From the NCBI RefSeq assembly GCF_014905135.1, contig NZ_CP041406.1, positions 1,240,001-1,304,000 of the forward strand: a stretch of 64,000 bases of DNA. The letters are read 5' to 3'. A program made the position numbers and the translations under genes. Under the pieces are notes generated by a model. That model was not told where the DNA came from and searched no databases. It saw only the letters and a list, made by a program, of their open reading frames with translations. This DNA is from Sulfurimonas paralvinellae (GTDB lineage Bacteria; Campylobacterota; Campylobacteria; Campylobacterales; Sulfurimonadaceae). Each line of letters begins with the position of its first letter. The first letter of the stretch is position 1. Shown here piece by piece: positions 5,300 through 55,159 of the stretch.

Positions 5300-6007
5300 T
5301 TAATGACACTGAAGAATTGTACGAAGTGGATTTGTCAAGTAATCATAACCATTATAAAGTGTAAACAGACCATAGAGAACAACTGCTACAGATGAGAGGC
5401 TCATCATCATGTTTCTAAAGCTGGTAGCCGAAGCAAGCGAAGAGAGAAAACCAAGTGAAAACATTGCCGGAATCGTACTCACGCCAAAGATGAACATTAC
5501 AAGTGCACCGTAAAAAGGACTTGCCGTACTTGCAGCCGTAATGGCAAAGAAGTAGACAAAACCACATGGCAGTAGTCCATTGAGCATACCGAGTATAAAG
5601 AAGCTGACATTAGATTTGGAGTGAAGTATCTTTTGAAATGATTTTTTATAAAAGTTCGATGAAGATATGGAGTGTTCAATAACCGTCAGAAACTTTATCT
5701 TCCCCATCAAAGAGAGTCCCGCCAAGACCATGGCCGTACCGGCAATAATTAAAAGTGTACCGTTTGCCGTATTGTTAAACGTAGCCACACCTCCGATAGC
5801 ACCAAAAAGAGCTCCTAAGATCGTATAGGTAAGCACTCTTCCAAAATTATAAAGCAGGTGTGCAACTGTTTTAGATACCTTTGAGCTTGCAGGCTCTATT
5901 TTAATGGTCGAATATGCCAAAACAATACCGCCGCACATACCGATGCAATGACCGAAGGAACCTAAAAAAGCAATAGAGACGATTGTCAGTAAATTGACTG
6001 TATCCAT
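5300..6007 (-). CDS. SafE/TauE-type (UreH-like) integral membrane protein
   Basis: 235 residues with about six transmembrane helices. The first helix carries GSFGHCIGMCGG, a His/Cys motif conserved in the family annotated as sulfite exporter TauE/SafE or UreH-like, and a second Cys-containing stretch (LNGLLPCGFVYFF) lies in a later helix. Relatives sit beside cytochrome cbb3 oxidase genes in Campylobacterota and are suspected of metal (copper or nickel) handling, so the sulfite-export name should not be taken literally. The stop codon of the upstream NosL-like gene overlaps the start region, consistent with a coupled pair. Confidence 0.8.
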   Translation of the reverse strand: MDTVNLLTIVSIAFLGSFGHCIGMCGGIVLAYSTIKIEPASSKVSKTVAHLLYNFGRVLTYTILGALFGAIGGVATFNNTANGTLLIIAGTAMVLAGLSLMGKIKFLTVIEHSISSSNFYKKSFQKILHSKSNVSFFILGMLNGLLPCGFVYFFAITAASTASPFYGALVMFIFGVSTIPAMFSLGFLSSLASATSFRNMMMSLSSVAVVLYGLFTLYNGYDYLTNPLRTILQCH

Positions 6008-6510
6008 TATCTGCCCAACAACTGTTTTCTTATTTTCGGGTCTTTCATCGTCTCTCCACGCAGTACCTTAAGACACATTGTCTTAAAGTCTATCATACCC
6101 TTGCCTTTTTTTTCATAGGCTCCAAATCCATATCCCATCGGTGTCATTTCATTAACACTGTAGTAGGCTTTTCTACCGTCTATCCACTTGTGTGTATCTC
6201 GGCTCATTACCCAGATAACGGCCTCTTTTTCAAATGGTTTGTCTTTGAGCCACTCCACAAAATCACCATGGTCATGAAAGAACCAGGTCTTTCCATCAGG
6301 TGCAATAACCTGCGAAGCATAGGTCAGTTCCGTAATGACCATACCACAAAAACTGTCCTGACATTTATTGACTTCCATCTTCAGAGGAACCTTTTGCAGA
6401 TTTCCCTCTTTAATAACGACCATATTTTGAGATTTCGACAAAGATAAAAACAAAACAATGATAACAGCAACAATAGCAAGAACGATTAAAACAGGGGCAA
6501 ATTTTTTCAT
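6007..6510 (-). CDS. NosL-like membrane-anchored protein
   Basis: A 167-residue protein with one N-terminal transmembrane anchor (about residues 5-24), then a periplasmic domain with a Cys pair and CGM motif (C50 and C55-G-M57) followed by a WFFHDHGDF stretch and a Gly/Tyr-rich segment. This arrangement matches NosL, a copper-binding lipoprotein or chaperone used in nitrous oxide reductase maturation. Here the lipobox is replaced by an uncleaved anchor. The start at MKKFAP is preferred over one seven residues upstream. Its coupling to the SafE-like gene suggests both handle copper at the periplasmic face; no nos structural genes lie nearby. Confidence 0.75.
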   Translation of the reverse strand: MKKFAPVLIVLAIVAVIIVLFLSLSKSQNMVVIKEGNLQKVPLKMEVNKCQDSFCGMVITELTYASQVIAPDGKTWFFHDHGDFVEWLKDKPFEKEAVIWVMSRDTHKWIDGRKAYYSVNEMTPMGYGFGAYEKKGKGMIDFKTMCLKVLRGETMKDPKIRKQLLGR

Positions 6511-6545: not shown

Positions 6546-7022
6546 TTAATCACGGCGTTTTTTTCCTTTCCCCATATCATCATACTTTAAAAAGCGTTCA
6601 AGATCCGCTTTAAAATCATCATCAAGGCTATCCCATATCTCTTTTTTTCTGGCATATCGAGGCATATCCTCTTTTTTCGATTTTTTCATATCACGGATAA
6701 GATAGTGATAGCGGACGAGATTCTTTGTATAGTCACTTAAAAACGGCCAGTTCTTTATGATCTGATAGCTTCTCTCTTCATGATCCGTAAAACTCCATTC
6801 GTTATACTCCCGATCCTCTTCATCTTTTTTAAACGCAGAAAACGGCTTGCCGATGTCATGCAAAAGCGCAGCGGCAAGCATCTTGTAATCACCATGTTTG
6901 AGCGTATAATAGACAACACGCAAAGTATGCACAAGGACACCGTGCTGATGCCATTTGTTCTGCGTAAAAAAGAGTGAATCCAAAAACGGCTTGGAAAATA
7001 TCTTGTTCTTTACTTCGCTCAT
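6546..7022 (-). CDS. HD domain protein
   Basis: 158 residues. Metal-ligand pattern of an HD phosphohydrolase: an upstream His (VLVHTLRVVYY), the LLHDIGKP motif, and a later DHEERS stretch with another His. The C-terminus is Lys-rich and basic. The family includes nucleotidases, tRNA-processing enzymes and cyclic nucleotide phosphodiesterases; the substrate cannot be told from sequence. Its start overlaps the end of the Xer recombinase gene by four bases, so the pair is translationally coupled. No signal peptide. Confidence 0.8.
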   Translation of the reverse strand: MSEVKNKIFSKPFLDSLFFTQNKWHQHGVLVHTLRVVYYTLKHGDYKMLAAALLHDIGKPFSAFKKDEEDREYNEWSFTDHEERSYQIIKNWPFLSDYTKNLVRYHYLIRDMKKSKKEDMPRYARKKEIWDSLDDDFKADLERFLKYDDMGKGKKRRD

Positions 7023-7846
7023 AACTGCTCCTTTGTTATGGGATGATAGACATTGACCGTATCTTTGAGATCCTGCTTTTGAATATGTGTATATATCTGT
7101 GTCGTGAGAAGTGAAGCATGTCCCAAAAGTTCCTGCACTACCCGAAGATCCGCTCCACCTCGGATAAGTGAGGTCGCATAGGAGTGACGCAGTACGTGAG
7201 GTGAAACACCAAGATATTTTTGTGTGATCTTATATGCCGATATACGGCTGAGTTTACCGCCTCGGTAATTACACCATAGATGTTCCGTTTCAAAACCACT
7301 TGCCTGCAAATACGCTTCGATGGCTTTTTCAGCCACCGCTGCCAAAGGAACGATACGTTCTTTATCCCCCTTGGCATGACGAATATGCAGCCACTCTCCC
7401 TCGATATCACTGCGGCCAAGTTCCAATGCTTCGCTGATACGTGCTCCGCTTGCATATAAAAAGAGTATCAGTGCATAGTCACGCAGTCCTATCCATGTGC
7501 TTCTGTCAATGAGGGCAAGCCCATTTTGAATATCTTCATAAGAGAGAAACTTTGGCAGCAATTTAGGAATTTTGGAGAGTCTTATCTTGTTTTTTTCTTC
7601 GAGAAACTGCGACTTATAGCAAAAATCAAAGAAGGCGTTTATGGAAGAGAGTTTGCGGTTGAGTGTTCGTTTGTTGTCGTAGGCTTCCAAAGCGGTGAAG
7701 AGCAGCTTTGTGTCGAGCTCTATCAAGGGTTTTTGTAGTTTTTCTTCAAAAAAGAGCAGATCACTTTTATATGCAGCGACACTCTTTTGTGAAAGGGCTT
7801 TTGTAACAGTAATATACTCTATAAAAGCCTCAAGTTCGTTAGACAT
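7019..7846 (-). CDS. Tyrosine recombinase, Xer family
   Basis: 275 residues, with an N-terminal SAM-like DNA-binding domain (about 1-85) and a C-terminal catalytic domain. All catalytic residues are visible: R136 (GARISEAL), K159, H217 and R220 (HVLRHSYAT), H243 (LLGHASLLTT) and nucleophile Y252. Xer proteins resolve chromosome dimers at dif with FtsK; Campylobacterota usually use a single recombinase, XerH. At 275 residues this is shorter than the ~350-residue XerH and closer to XerC/XerD, so I leave the symbol blank. The neighbours are housekeeping genes and there is no attachment-site duplication, so it is not a mobile-element integrase. It overlaps the BamB-like gene by one base. Confidence 0.85.
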   Translation of the reverse strand: MSNELEAFIEYITVTKALSQKSVAAYKSDLLFFEEKLQKPLIELDTKLLFTALEAYDNKRTLNRKLSSINAFFDFCYKSQFLEEKNKIRLSKIPKLLPKFLSYEDIQNGLALIDRSTWIGLRDYALILFLYASGARISEALELGRSDIEGEWLHIRHAKGDKERIVPLAAVAEKAIEAYLQASGFETEHLWCNYRGGKLSRISAYKITQKYLGVSPHVLRHSYATSLIRGGADLRVVQELLGHASLLTTQIYTHIQKQDLKDTVNVYHPITKEQL

Positions 7847-50854: not shown

Positions 50855-51160
50855 TTGTCCACTTCCTTTGAAAAAATCATGAAGGCCAAATCACTCCTTG
50901 GTCTTCGTGAAAAGTCCTCCATTAAAGAAATCAAAAATCGTTATAAAGACCTTATGAAAAAATGGCATCCCGACAAACATCCGAATGATGTCGACAAAGC
51001 AACTAAAATGAGTATGAAGATAAATGATGCCTATAAGACTATTTTAGAATACTGCAATAACTATGAATACCCATTTGACGAAGAGAGTATACGAGAGAAG
51101 TACCAATCCCCTTCTGAGTGGATGCAAAACAAATTCGGCAATAAAAAAGATACTATTTAA
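50855..51160 (+). CDS. Short J-domain protein
   Basis: 101 residues that are mostly one J domain, with HPD in KKWHPDKHPN (about 41-50) and helices II and III in place, then a short C-terminal tail. TTG at 50855 is given as start; an ATG 24 bases later (MKAKSLLGL) is an alternative and neither has a strong ribosome site. It starts two bases after the ftsZ stop, so it is read from that transcript. It may direct DnaK to division or envelope clients; that is conjecture. Confidence 0.8.
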   Translation: MSTSFEKIMKAKSLLGLREKSSIKEIKNRYKDLMKKWHPDKHPNDVDKATKMSMKINDAYKTILEYCNNYEYPFDEESIREKYQSPSEWMQNKFGNKKDTI

Positions 51161-52115
51161 GCCAAACACCATTTTTGAGATAGTAGCTGAGTGGATAGTA
51201 TGTCACAATGAGCATATAGAGCGTATTGTAAAAAAGAGAAAGACGAAAACGTTTTAACTGCTCCTCTTTTTTAAACTCTATCAACCCAAGAGCTATACCA
51301 AAAAATGTTCCTACAAATAAGATGATATAAAGAAAATAGCCGATGTAGTTATAATCTCGCTGCAGAAGACAAAACGGACAGTGATGTGTCGGTAATTCAT
51401 AGATATAAGTGCCAAAGAAAGCAATCAGTGTGATGATTGCCATAATGAGATAAAAAACATTGGTTATGGCATAAAAATATCTGTTTTTTAGCAGGTAAAA
51501 TAGAACAAGCAGCACAAAAGTTCCATAAAAAAAAGAGAGCAGTAGTGAATGAGAAGCACCTAGAACCTCTGCCATATAAGTTGCTGATGTCGTTGAAAAA
51601 ATAGCTCCGCAACAATCAACAACACTATTTACATCCAAAGCACCATACATCATGCTCTCTATAACGATCTCTGCTAAAAGTAAAAAATAAGCTACACAAA
51701 AGAGCCAAAATTTCTTTTTAAGATAGGGTTGATTTTCATACTTCATATCTTCATCATTGAGCACTATCCAAAAAGCGAAAACATACAAATTGAGTATCTT
51801 TAACAAAAGCAGCGGCGTACCGTAAGTTGTCGCACTGACAACACCGGCTGCACACATAGCTCCTGGAAGCAAGGTAGCTATATTATTGAGAGTATAAACA
51901 AAAAAGATAAAAAGAGGTACTTTGACATAGAAAATAAATTTGATGATGGTTGCCGAGAGATAGCTTTTCTTTTCAAGCTCATACTGATAAGATGTCGTTG
52001 CATTAGTATCATAACTGCGTACTATTTTCACGGCGTTTACAAATGCTATGGTTGCAAAAATCACAAACAAAGCATTTATAATGTATAGCGTGATGATTTC
52101 CGGTGTTAAGAGCAT
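51153..52115 (-). CDS. Polytopic membrane protein with CPFC motif (DsbB/VKOR-like pattern)
   Basis: 320 residues with about eight membrane helices. A C246-P-F-C249 motif followed by LLQR lies just after a helix, as in DsbB-type or VKOR-type quinone-linked thiol oxidases, and further cysteines C88, C140 and the C168-C169 pair lie elsewhere. I do not recognise the exact family. It is last of four coupled genes (permease, ATPase and NosL-like upstream), and its start overlaps the ATPase stop by one base. A redox or metal role in the cluster is inferred. Its 3' end overlaps the J-domain gene. Confidence 0.7.
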   Translation of the reverse strand: MLLTPEIITLYIINALFVIFATIAFVNAVKIVRSYDTNATTSYQYELEKKSYLSATIIKFIFYVKVPLFIFFVYTLNNIATLLPGAMCAAGVVSATTYGTPLLLLKILNLYVFAFWIVLNDEDMKYENQPYLKKKFWLFCVAYFLLLAEIVIESMMYGALDVNSVVDCCGAIFSTTSATYMAEVLGASHSLLLSFFYGTFVLLVLFYLLKNRYFYAITNVFYLIMAIITLIAFFGTYIYELPTHHCPFCLLQRDYNYIGYFLYIILFVGTFFGIALGLIEFKKEEQLKRFRLSLFYNTLYMLIVTYYPLSYYLKNGVWLK

Positions 52116-52771
52116 TACAGGAGATTTCCGTGTTCAATGTTTACGATTGTATCTACAAAATCAAGATCGAAAAAAAGTGGATCATGTGTTGCCACAACAA
52201 TGGTTCTCTTTTTTGATTTAAGATCACGCAGCATCTCTATAAACTCCAAAGAGAGCTTCTCATCGAGGTTTGCCGTTGGTTCATCGGCTAAAATAATTTT
52301 AGGATCATTTATATTTGCTCTGGCAATGGCAACACGCTGCTGCTCCCCGCCTGAAAGATTTTTAACCATCATGTCAATTTTTTGTTCAATATGAAATTTA
52401 CCAAGCACGGCAGCTGCTTTTTGATCCATAAGCTCACGCGGAAGATTTAAAGGGAAGAGTGGAAGCAGAACATTCTCTTTAACTGAGAGTGTCGGGATGA
52501 GATTGTACTTTTGAAAAACTATACCGATGTTATCACGTCGATAAGTTGCCGCAAAATGATCAGGCAGTTTCGATATCTTTTTACTGTCAACAAACACCTC
52601 TCCTTCAGTCGGCTTTGACAAACCTGCGATCAAAGAGAGGATAGTACTCTTTCCACTGCCGCTCATACCTTTTAAAATGACTAACTCACCCTCTTTAAAA
52701 GTCAGATTGATATTGTTAAGTGCATGAACATTGCCATCATATATCTTTGTAATATTTTTCAGTCGGATCAT
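52115..52771 (-). CDS. ABC transporter ATP-binding protein (LolD/MacB type)
   Basis: 218 residues. Walker A GMSGSGKST (about 35-43), LSGGEQQRVAIARA signature, Walker B ILADEPTANLD and a His switch VATHDP. The FTSX-linked ATPase class, to which LolD, MacB and the P19-linked C. jejuni ATPase belong. Its start overlaps the permease stop by four bases and its stop overlaps the CPFC membrane protein, so the complex is translated together. Confidence 0.92.
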   Translation of the reverse strand: MIRLKNITKIYDGNVHALNNINLTFKEGELVILKGMSGSGKSTILSLIAGLSKPTEGEVFVDSKKISKLPDHFAATYRRDNIGIVFQKYNLIPTLSVKENVLLPLFPLNLPRELMDQKAAAVLGKFHIEQKIDMMVKNLSGGEQQRVAIARANINDPKIILADEPTANLDEKLSLEFIEMLRDLKSKKRTIVVATHDPLFFDLDFVDTIVNIEHGNLL

Positions 52772-53943
52772 CGCATCACCTCATCAGCGTCTAAAGTCGC
52801 TACTCTCCAAGACGGTATCAAGGTTGCGGCAATATATACCGGTACAGAGAGTAAAAAGATCAGCAAGATATATGACATATCAATATGCACATTCAGCGTA
52901 AAGGAGTTGATATCCAAAAGATTTTCATGGGTAAATATTGATCCAAGCAATGGTGCTTTTAACAAAAAGACATATATATAAGCCAACGCAACACCTAAAA
53001 TAAAAGAGAAAAGAGAAAGTAGTGATGCTTCATAGAATTTTGCATGCAATACATCTTCCACTCGCCAGCCTAAAGCTTTTAGAATCCCTATCTCCCGTTT
53101 CTCTTCTGAACTCAAACCATTGGCTTTATCATACACGATAACAAAGAATGTAAAAAGAGCTATAATAAAGAGTGAAAGGAAAACACCATTGTCATAATCA
53201 AAGAGTTTCTCATACTTTACGCTTAAATCATTTTTGGATACTACCTTTGCATTTGGCAACAGCAGACGAATCTTTGAAGCGATGAAATCGAGTTCATTTT
53301 TATTAGCAACGCTCAAAGCAATATCTGTTACCTGATTTTTATGATAACCAAAAATCTTCTGAGCTGTCTCTTTTTGCATGAGTATCAAATTTTGCAGTTC
53401 TACACGCTTAGAGACATCAAAACTATCTGCAAGAGACACTTTTAAGAGTTCTCCATCAGGCTTCACAAAGTTAAAATATTCCTTATAATAGGCCTGTTTC
53501 ATTGCCTTTTTTACATTTATGCTCACCAACATAGAAGATTCATTGATGTCATGTTTTTCAAGTAGTTTTTGGATGAAAGGATCACTCTGTGTTTCAAAAG
53601 GATCCACACCCACTATATAAAAGTTTTTATCTTTGGCTCTAAAGTAGTACGTTCCCTCAACTCTTGTTCTTCCGGAACTTATTCCATCAATTTCCAAAAG
53701 TTTGTCAAGCAGACCGGCATCAATGGCAGCAGGTTTTCCGGCCTGATAGTTTTGTACAAGAATATCGGGCTGATTTTTTATACGCTCACGCAGTTCATAC
53801 TCTATGGAACTTGTCGTAAAAAAAAGGCTTGAGAGCAGTGCTACTAAAAGTGTAAATACCGTAACTATAAAGAAATTTTTACTCTTATAGCGTAAAATAT
53901 ATGCATAGGCATACTCTAATAGATAAAAGTTTATCTTACTCAT
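52768..53943 (-). CDS. FtsX-type ABC permease
   Basis: 391 residues: one N-terminal helix (about 24-45), a large extracytoplasmic domain (about 46-255), then three C-terminal helices, the standard MacB/LolC layout. The segment EEKREIGILKALGWRVEDVL after the first C-terminal helix is the FtsX signature. It likely couples ATP hydrolysis to movement of a periplasmic or lipid-linked substrate rather than transport through the membrane. Overlaps the NosL-like gene by eight bases. Confidence 0.9.
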   Translation of the reverse strand: MSKINFYLLEYAYAYILRYKSKNFFIVTVFTLLVALLSSLFFTTSSIEYELRERIKNQPDILVQNYQAGKPAAIDAGLLDKLLEIDGISSGRTRVEGTYYFRAKDKNFYIVGVDPFETQSDPFIQKLLEKHDINESSMLVSINVKKAMKQAYYKEYFNFVKPDGELLKVSLADSFDVSKRVELQNLILMQKETAQKIFGYHKNQVTDIALSVANKNELDFIASKIRLLLPNAKVVSKNDLSVKYEKLFDYDNGVFLSLFIIALFTFFVIVYDKANGLSSEEKREIGILKALGWRVEDVLHAKFYEASLLSLFSFILGVALAYIYVFLLKAPLLGSIFTHENLLDINSFTLNVHIDMSYILLIFLLSVPVYIAATLIPSWRVATLDADEVMR

Positions 53944-54610
53944 CGAGTTTATATACCATATCTGCTGTTATATCATCAAATTTGACAATTTTTTTACCGC
54001 GATGATCAAGCAGAAAATTCTCTGCTCTTTTTTTATCTTTAAAAGCAATAAGTTCATTGCCCATAGGGCCATACACATCACTACCAAGGACAAAATAAGC
54101 ATCTTTAACATTCACGGTCTCTTGTGTATAGTAAGATTGCGTGAGCATCTCTTTAATATTTTTATTGTGTTCAAAATAATACTTCATCAAATCTTTCATA
54201 CCGTCAAAATAGAGTTTCTTGCCATCTTTATACGCTATCATACTTACCCATTTTGGATATTTGTATAAAAACATCCCACATACTGGACACTTCTCATCAT
54301 GAGATACATGAATTACAGGATATTTTTTTGTAACTTTTTTTTCTCTTTTAACATCCCAGAGATAAAGAGCAAGCGCTTCTTGATAAGCCGGTTTTAGTTG
54401 AGAGCACTCCTGCTTTTTCTCTATACTGTGAAATAGCTCATTATAGGTGCTGTATTGCGTGAGATTAACAGTAGAGCATTTTTTTTCAAAAATCTTTTTA
54501 CCCATCGGATATATTTTCTTCTCTTTTATAGCAGAAGAGTAGTTTGGATAGGCAAAAAGATTTGTTAGAAGAAAAAAAGCAAATAGGAAAAATAGTTTAA
54601 AAAAAGACAT
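53936..54610 (-). CDS. NosL-like protein with degenerate cytochrome c-type N-domain
   Basis: 224 residues. Signal peptide (about 1-20), then a segment (about 33-95) resembling a cytochrome c domain: GKKIFEKKCS at the heme-attachment site and CSQLKP..EALALYLWDV at the end, but without the CxxCH second Cys and His, so heme cannot bind. The remainder is a NosL domain with CPVCGM and FDGMKDLMKYYF. First gene of the four-gene cluster, and it has a direct repeat with an 11-base period upstream. It may sense or bind copper and feed the ABC complex. Confidence 0.75.
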   Translation of the reverse strand: MSFFKLFFLFAFFLLTNLFAYPNYSSAIKEKKIYPMGKKIFEKKCSTVNLTQYSTYNELFHSIEKKQECSQLKPAYQEALALYLWDVKREKKVTKKYPVIHVSHDEKCPVCGMFLYKYPKWVSMIAYKDGKKLYFDGMKDLMKYYFEHNKNIKEMLTQSYYTQETVNVKDAYFVLGSDVYGPMGNELIAFKDKKRAENFLLDHRGKKIVKFDDITADMVYKLDE

Positions 54611-54676: not shown

Positions 54677-55159
54677 CTAGTCAATACGCAGAAGCATTAA
54701 CCTTCTGATAAAAAGCACTACAAGGGCAACCGCTAAAAGTTTAAAATCTATCTCACTGGCTATATGGATATTTTCAAAAGTATCACTTTGTGTAGCTTCT
54801 TTTCCCATTAACTGCATTGAAAGAATTTTTGGTACATAAACCGCTGCGAACATGAGTGAAGAAAATATTGCAGTTACCGCTGCGCCAAAAACAATAGCGT
54901 CACGCTGTCCCATCTTATACATATAAGCTTCATAAAAAGCGATGTATGCTGCCAAAAAATATGCCCAGTAAGCAAATCTACGAAAAATCTCTCCCATAAT
55001 CATACCCATGTTATAATGATCTATCAACATCCCTACAAGGTATTTGTCACTATGAAAAATAACAGGTGCTACAATGGCACCAAGAACAAGCACAGCCCCT
55101 AAACTCGCTGCCACAATCAACAAATAACTAAAATCCAAATATATATTTCTTTTTAACAA
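54677..55159 (-). CDS. DUF4149-like small membrane protein
   Basis: 160 residues with four membrane helices (about 10-30, 55-75, 85-108, 138-152). The GAVLVLGAIVAPVIFH opening and the FAAVYVPKILSMQ region resemble the DUF4149/TMEM205 group of unknown function. It is two bases after prmC and in the same operon. It is not obviously part of the NosL cluster, from which it is separated by a 66-base gap with a candidate promoter. Confidence 0.75.
   Translation of the reverse strand: MLKRNIYLDFSYLLIVAASLGAVLVLGAIVAPVIFHSDKYLVGMLIDHYNMGMIMGEIFRRFAYWAYFLAAYIAFYEAYMYKMGQRDAIVFGAAVTAIFSSLMFAAVYVPKILSMQLMGKEATQSDTFENIHIASEIDFKLLAVALVVLFIRRLMLLRID

Follow-up and report, generated by a model that had tools for sequence, protein, structure and literature searches.

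A NosL-like/SafE gene pair in Sulfurimonas paralvinellae and its possible part in copper delivery to cbb3 oxidase

In published accounts NosL is the chaperone for nitrous oxide reductase, while the oxidases and the NosZ CuA centre have PCuAC and Sco as theirs (PMC7558416 and PMC8456105, each in the part available). It is to the CuZ centre that NosL is assigned, and its likely Cu(I) site is a CXM motif joined by a further Met, according to the accessible part of PMC6530538; a lipobox cysteine is given as its anchor in the available part of PMC7558416. Campylobacter jejuni shows reduced activity of the cbb3 oxidase (Cco) once its PCuAC/Sco operon is deleted, as far as the accessible portion of PMC8267372 goes, and the main text of that paper makes no mention of SafE, TauE, DsbD or NosL. 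In Paracoccus, PCuAC and Sco (SenC2) also act on the CuA centre of NosZ (PMC7558416, in the same part). In the open-licence literature I found no account of a NosL-like/SafE pair and none of an oxidase served by NosL.

Such a pair is present in the window analysed here, by which I mean the whole stretch of 64,000 nucleotides from S. paralvinellae. As a sequence-only reading of this DNA had stated, two minus-strand genes encode a SafE-type membrane protein and an anchored NosL-like protein that carries CGM (Table 1). Compared with PCuAC (PccA/PcuC) and Sco/SenC, the pair would have the same job, the periplasmic delivery of Cu(I) to cbb3 oxidase, but its members come from other protein families, and within one family of genomes (f9) PCuAC and the NosL-like protein largely exclude each other. 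Its SafE shares family and motif with the COG2836 'SafE' of ccoN neighbourhoods, which in some related genomes lies between carA and ccoN. Unlike that protein, the window SafE is encoded away from ccoN and beside the NosL-like gene, and it ends in a Cys-His tail. A third comparison concerns a four-gene block elsewhere in the window, which is analogous to the NosDFY-NosL machine in that both combine an ABC transporter with NosL-type proteins. The block differs from that machine in having a permease of FtsX/LolC type (PF02687) in place of NosY and a membrane protein with five Cys that matches no Pfam family; there is no NosD beside the block, and NosD had no match in the window.

Table 1. Features of the pair and of the four-gene block, in window coordinates
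Feature	Position	Strand	Basis
NosL-like protein (167 aa) with a single N-terminal membrane helix followed by a predicted NosL-fold domain	6007..6510	-	ORF, AlphaFold2, Foldseek/VIA
Cys55-Gly56-Met57 of the NosL-like protein, the C-x-M of NosL, putative Cu(I) site	6340..6348	-	Conservation, PMC6530538 (part available)
DsbD_2 membrane protein of SafE/COG2836 type (235 aa; predicted to have six helices)	5300..6007	-	PF13386 173.1 bits, hydropathy
GHCIGMCGG motif, helix 1 of SafE	5927..5953	-	Invariant residues in 69/69 SafE
SafE C-terminal tail, last residues Cys-His, predicted periplasmic	5303..5350	-	Tail counts, K+R-rich loops opposite
NosL2, N-terminal Cys-containing domain followed by a NosL domain that has CPVCGM	53936..54610	-	PF05573 107.4 bits; in cassette of other genera
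FtsX-type ABC permease (LolC/MacB-like)	52768..53943	-	PF02687 48.3 bits; best NCBIfam lolCE 42.7 bits, far below cut-off
ABC ATPase (FtsE/LolD-like)	52115..52771	-	PF00005 126.3 bits; best NCBIfam FtsE, below cut-off
DsbBl, membrane protein of eight helices; invariant residues are five Cys, one Met and one His (AMC, CC, HxCPFC)	51153..52115	-	52/52 invariant; model pLDDT 92.1

Anatomy and conservation of the pair

The ORF calls place both genes within 5300-6510, the NosL-like gene upstream and the SafE gene downstream. The ATG start of the NosL-like gene is at 6510 (the mechanically called frame opens at TTG 6531), and its stop codon overlaps the SafE start by one base (TAATG around 6007). 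At window 6546-7846 (minus strand) an HD-domain protein and a recombinase labelled XerD precede the pair, an order kept in six of seven loci of the genus, L009 being the exception.

The pairing is well beyond chance. SafE directly follows the NosL-like gene in 29 of the 30 best loci of a 149-genome sample of the order, the window's own included, and 11 further genomes paired by coordinates bring the count to 40 of the 74 genomes with a NosL-like gene. Membership of these 74 required a best match of at least 91.7 bits, with one genome (G132, 65 bits) added because its gene adjoins DsbBl, a member of the four-gene block; genomes whose best match was 65.4 bits or lower, taken for nos-cluster paralogues, were scored as lacking NosL-like. 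In a second collection of genome contigs (80 loci), SafE comes after NosL-like, overlapping it or within 16 bases, at 78 loci by script; one of the other two (L219) has a SafE frame with an over-long ORF start and the other (L200) has no SafE.

The closest named relatives of the NosL-like protein are encoded on Sulfurimonas contigs, two of them metagenome bins at 90% identity and one S. indica at 84%. The Pfam NosL model (PF05573) scores the protein at 17.2 bits (E 0.0069), short of the curated cut-off of 24, and matches 29 of 47 NosL-like homologues at E <= 0.1 (best 1.5e-4). Searching PDB sequences with the single protein gave no match at E <= 1 and the profile found NosL only at E 0.3, so the NosL fold rests on the predicted model. 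NosL chains are the five best Foldseek/VIA matches of this AlphaFold2 model (pLDDT 94.2), with E values of 5.8e-5 to 4.1e-4 and Z 12.8-13.7 over 111-124 residues; 7og7 reaches Z 13.7 over 111 residues, and the NMR structure of NosL (2hpu) only Z 4.0, with MerB at 5.1. Among 68 homologues, counted after removal of those outside the length limits (140-260 aa for NosL-like), C55 is kept in 94%, M57 in 95% and M125 in 97%; the alignment (A1) has 47 rows, comprising 47 of 61 references, with the window's own protein replacing its copy L005. The protein therefore shares with NosL the predicted fold, the C-x-M site, a further conserved Met and a membrane-anchored domain. Unlike NosL, it is anchored by a transmembrane helix (residues 5-25), its gene overlaps SafE, and it shows no link to nosZ in the tree contrasts given below. 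It has no Cys before residue 50, and for want of the lipobox Cys I call it NosL-like. By predicted fold it belongs to NosL; by Pfam score it lies below the line.

The partner protein matches Pfam DsbD_2 (PF13386) at E 8.4e-51 and has no match at E <= 1 to the sulfite exporter family PF01925 (TauE/SafE). It is of the type often called SafE or COG2836. Its description as His/Cys-rich in the sequence-only reading does not fit the protein overall, with four Cys and five His in 235 aa, and does fit one dense motif (GHCIGMCGG) and the Cys-His C-terminus. H20, C21, M24 and C25 of helix 1 and C148 of helix 4 are invariant in 69 of 69 SafE proteins, across all contexts. Hydropathy and loop counts put the tail on the side of the K/R-poor loops, opposite the K+R-rich ones, and it is therefore predicted to be periplasmic. 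Tails of at least 8 aa have a C+H+M fraction of 0.13-0.21, against 0.074 for the body and 0.02-0.06 for the loops; the first five residues, start Met included, have 0.139. A tail Cys occurs in 40 of 40 paired SafE proteins, in 18 of 30 with NosL-like elsewhere in the genome, in 7 of 55 without NosL-like and in none of eight second copies (133 proteins from 127 genomes, second copies counted apart and rows without a closed C-terminus omitted). On the SafE tree, which holds 125 of these proteins, the tail pattern gives seven contrasts, with the same direction in 4.5 cases, the opposite direction in 0.3 and no difference in 2.2, too small a number for significance (p 0.06-0.6). At five loci with SafE near ccoN (L125, L127, L131, L136 and L137), the frame is open 5' of GHCxG and holds no ATG, GTG or TTG before the Met of GMCGG, so that translation may begin there at a rarer codon.

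SafE might also be read as an electron conduit of CcdA/DsbD type that keeps the C-x-M thiol of the NosL-like protein and the five-Cys protein of the block reduced, with copper arriving by another route such as CcoI. The DsbD_2 match favours this, as do a match of one related SafE (L133) to the NCBIfam DsbD model (E 6.3e-5, far below its cut-off) and the invariant cysteines in helix 1 (C21, C25) and helix 4 (C148); CcdA and DsbD likewise have Cys in helix 1 and helix 4. The invariant H20 and M24 and the Met/His/Cys-rich tails, however, fit a metal better than electrons alone. I regard such a conduit as possible, if on the doubtful side, and it is compatible with the reading preferred below, in which the pair loads copper into an oxidase.

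A second NosL and its four-gene block

The sequence-only reading had also noticed a second NosL-like protein in the window, and this is correct (NosL2 in Table 1). Its gene is part of a block, NosL2-FtsX-ABC-DsbBl, that spans 51153-54610 and lies 45 kb from the pair. DsbBl is a name coined in this analysis. The window protein matches no Pfam family and its model has no match in the PDB at E <= 0.001; VIA matches of the model, up to Z 12.5, are helical bundles, possibly a common arrangement. Its possible likeness to DsbB/VKOR consists of a CPFC stretch seen by eye and two weak VKOR matches among 52 members, the best at E 0.002. The five invariant Cys, Met87 and His244 all fall in loops of one side of the membrane, the side poorer in K/R, the K/R contrast being modest (alignment A2, 52 rows; 52 of 62 references plus the window protein considered).

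In other genera NosL2-FtsX-ABC-DsbBl-NosL-like form one contiguous cassette, often with SafE. All six genes are contiguous at eight loci (L099, L103, L104, L113, L115, L116, L117 and L120) and also at L048, where they lie inside a nos cluster. The cassette is split in the window's genus (the window and L064-L068), and L082 has a NosL paralogue after DsbBl. In most loci the cassette ATPase was scripted as nosF (two ATPase models overlap) and was assigned by its place between FtsX and DsbBl. Of the 149 genomes, 67 have NosL-like as well as DsbBl and 74 have neither, with NosL-like alone in seven and DsbBl alone in one. Contrasts here and below use the SafE gene tree, built by a quick method, and not a species tree; of its eight independent contrasts for NosL-like, an average of 7.8 show DsbBl changing in parallel and none show the reverse (median p 0.008). 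The two NosL-type systems had been taken as independent, a view ruled out by the contiguity of the six genes in other genera and by the joint presence of NosL-like and DsbBl: the pair and the four-gene block belong to one system. DsbBl is absent from seven pair genomes, so the pair can also stand alone.

Recurrent neighbours of the cassette are mostly genus-level synteny and response regulators, and the largest neighbour cluster, from 28 genomes, lies between NosL2 and FtsX. Three further observations concern the block and its surroundings. The N-terminal domain of NosL2 looks by eye like a small cytochrome c without the CxxCH haem motif, with Gly37, Cys45 and Cys69 kept in 95-97% of 49 sequences. 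A DUF4149 membrane protein (window 54677-55159, minus strand) adjoins NosL2 and is kept in seven genomes of the window's family, its own included. In six genomes (loci L046, L107, L108, L110, L118 and L123), second or single cassette copies lie near a putative cytochrome c synthase, which I take to be CcsBA-like.

Distribution relative to ccoN, nosZ and PCuAC/Sco

SafE and ccoN occur together in 121 of the 149 genomes, SafE alone in eight, ccoN alone in five and neither in 15 (p 3.9e-11), a value that overstates the case because 11 of the 15 double-negative genomes belong to one family (f16), the rest being in three others. This and the other Fisher values (those for NosL-like, nosZ, ccoN and PCuAC) ignore ancestry. 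Four genomes with sub-cut-off ccoN fragments are counted among the 126 with ccoN, and three that gave nothing beyond weak matches (G002, G042 and G071) are not. SafE lies on the same strand as ccoN and at most 5 kb from it in 37 genomes and beside NosL-like in 40, with zero overlap, and in 52 further genomes it is in neither place; the ccoN-linked arrangement accounts for 37 of the 89 genomes whose SafE gene does not adjoin NosL-like. Three of six such or comparable loci, followed gene by gene, read carA-SafE-ccoN or nearly so (L133, L143 and L137; the names carA and ccoOP were assigned in this analysis). In the genome of S. paralvinellae itself (L164) a carA-like gene lies directly 5' of ccoN, and SafE sits at NosL-like instead. 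The SafE tree has several such changes of context.

The sequence-only reading had looked to conservation of the two genes with each other and with copper enzymes. NosL-like does go with SafE and SafE with ccoN, whereas the presence of NosL-like is not associated with that of ccoN (66 of 74 genomes against 60 of 75; 66 with both, 8 with NosL-like only, 60 with ccoN only and 15 with neither; p 0.17), ccoN being nearly ubiquitous in the order. Among the 40 pair genomes, 35 have ccoN and 21 have nosZ, and one draft (G067) has neither; the five without ccoN are all drafts of 80-150 contigs. Of the 19 pair genomes without nosZ, 18 have ccoN.

The window had been described as free of nos structural genes. 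This holds for the window, in which models of the genome's own nos proteins matched only ABC ATPases. The genome as a whole, however, does carry nosZ, together with a nos cluster that includes two NosL-type proteins, on the same contig and ~630 kb from the pair. One of these two proteins scores as NosL by Pfam (78 bits; L044:7618-8088, minus strand) and has no Cys, hence no C-x-M; a sub-threshold neighbour (21.5 bits; L044:5426-5872, plus strand) has CARCAM. Ligand and canonical NosL profile thus seem to be divided between the two. The same genome encodes another protein with a NosL domain (205 aa, 54 bits) at ~1506 kb (contig C1; L055:6167-6784, minus strand), apart from both nos cluster and cassette.

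An alternative is that the pair and cassette are extra NosZ assembly factors dispersed from the nos cluster, perhaps replacing PCuAC/Sco at CuA. NosL is known as a chaperone of CuZ and PCuAC/SenC2 act on CuA (PMC6530538 and PMC7558416, both in part), several genera carry the cassette within or alongside nos clusters (L040, L041, L043, L048, L052, L053, L071 and L072 among others), and NosL-like is present in 42 of 56 nosZ genomes (32 with NosL-like only, 14 with nosZ only, 61 with neither; Fisher p 1.7e-6, ancestry ignored). On the SafE tree, however, nosZ changes the same way as NosL-like in 1.9 of eight contrasts and the opposite way in 1.4, which amounts to no link; the uncorrected Fisher test by itself would mislead, and a role specific to nosZ is weakened. 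Moreover, nosZ is absent from 32 of the 74 NosL-like genomes, from 19 of the 40 pair genomes and, among the six pair genomes that f9 contributes to the order sample, from five. The nos cluster of S. paralvinellae already has its own two NosL-type proteins, and SafE genes that are not beside NosL-like are often near ccoN, as counted above. I consider this explanation unlikely.

PCuAC (PF04314) and strong Sco matches (PF02630, at least 89.9 bits, weaker matches in other genomes being set aside) are found in an identical set of 25 of the 149 genomes, all with ccoN. NosL-like is present in six of these 25 and absent from 19, compared with 68 of the 124 others (p 0.0076), and in five of the six genomes with both sets SafE is without the Cys tail. 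S. paralvinellae has ccoN and the pair, and its genome gave no PCuAC or Sco match. Both sets are lacking in 41 of the 126 ccoN-positive genomes, which implies that cbb3 can be built without either.

Eleven members of family f9 are in the order sample, and all have ccoN; six combine the pair with a Cys tail and lack PCuAC, and the other five have PCuAC without the pair or the tail Cys. Among 104 genomes of the family, 63 have NosL-like only, 27 PCuAC only, seven both and seven neither (odds ratio 0.029, p 2.3e-12), with the NosL-like threshold placed in a gap between 193.8 and 140.7 bits, such that genomes scored as lacking often hold weaker paralogues (for example G221 at 137 and G193 at 134 bits); ccoN and Sco were scored in the 11 order-sample members. 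Six of the seven genomes with both are in one genus (g66).

Could this pattern be a side effect of ancestry or habitat and not a replacement? On the 149-genome SafE tree informative contrasts are few: 1.3-1.7 go the expected way and 0-0.3 against it, which is not significant. Within f9, however, five genera (g13, g60, g66, g69 and g74) hold both NosL-only and PCuAC-only members, and shuffling within genera gives an expected overlap of 16.2 genomes against the seven observed, a value as low being reached in 0 of 20,000 shuffles. Two of the five contrasts are weak, in that the PCuAC-only member of g69 is a draft 61% complete and that of g60 has a distant NosL-like paralogue (137 bits). A mere by-product of ancestry or habitat appears improbable. 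The exclusion alone does not name the client, given that in Paracoccus NosZ, too, depends on PCuAC and Sco for its CuA centre.

A possible role in loading copper into cbb3 oxidase

Copper handling, with oxidases as the likely client, had been proposed by the sequence-only reading and is favoured by the link between SafE and ccoN, by the near-universal presence of ccoN in pair genomes without nosZ and by the exclusion with PCuAC/Sco. The best overall explanation, to which I give about an even chance, is that the pair takes the place of PCuAC/Sco as the copper loader of cbb3 oxidase, and the client is most likely CcoN. From the observed anatomy and distribution I infer copper binding, the direction of transfer, the client enzyme and the source of energy. 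The NosL-like protein, on its one-helix anchor, would hold Cu(I) on C-x-M. The six-helix DsbD_2 protein SafE, which has HCxxMC in the membrane, may move Cu(I) or keep the thiol of the chaperone reduced, and its periplasmic Cys/His tail would exchange copper with the NosL-like protein. The four-gene block, with NosL2, the FtsX/ABC transporter and the five-Cys DsbBl, probably powers the loading or hand-over, by analogy with NosDFY, which does this for NosL and nitrous oxide reductase.

A system for copper tolerance or scavenging that serves no particular enzyme is very unlikely: both proteins have soft-metal ligands, and ccoN and nosZ each fail to appear in some pair genomes, but the alternation of SafE between ccoN and NosL-like and the exclusion with PCuAC point to enzyme assembly, and the four neighbours of the pair run against Pfam (HDOD, HD, a beta-propeller lipoprotein and the pair's partner) include no copper pump or regulator.

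A broader proposal, which I put forward only tentatively and hold to be somewhat doubtful, is that pair and block together constitute a third copper route into a haem-copper oxidase. It would combine a NosL-fold chaperone and SafE with an FtsX/LolC-type ABC machine, a five-Cys membrane protein and a second NosL, following the NosDFY-NosL principle with different components, and across a large part of the order it would stand in for PCuAC/Sco (NosL-like in 74 of 149 genomes). If a NosL-fold protein with SafE does serve the oxidase, the division of labour between NosL on one side and PCuAC/Sco on the other breaks down, and NosL-type genes are no safe sign of N2O reduction. A SafE gene near ccoN would also gain a testable role, and the swap between PCuAC and NosL-like within single genera would provide natural pairs of relatives for comparison.
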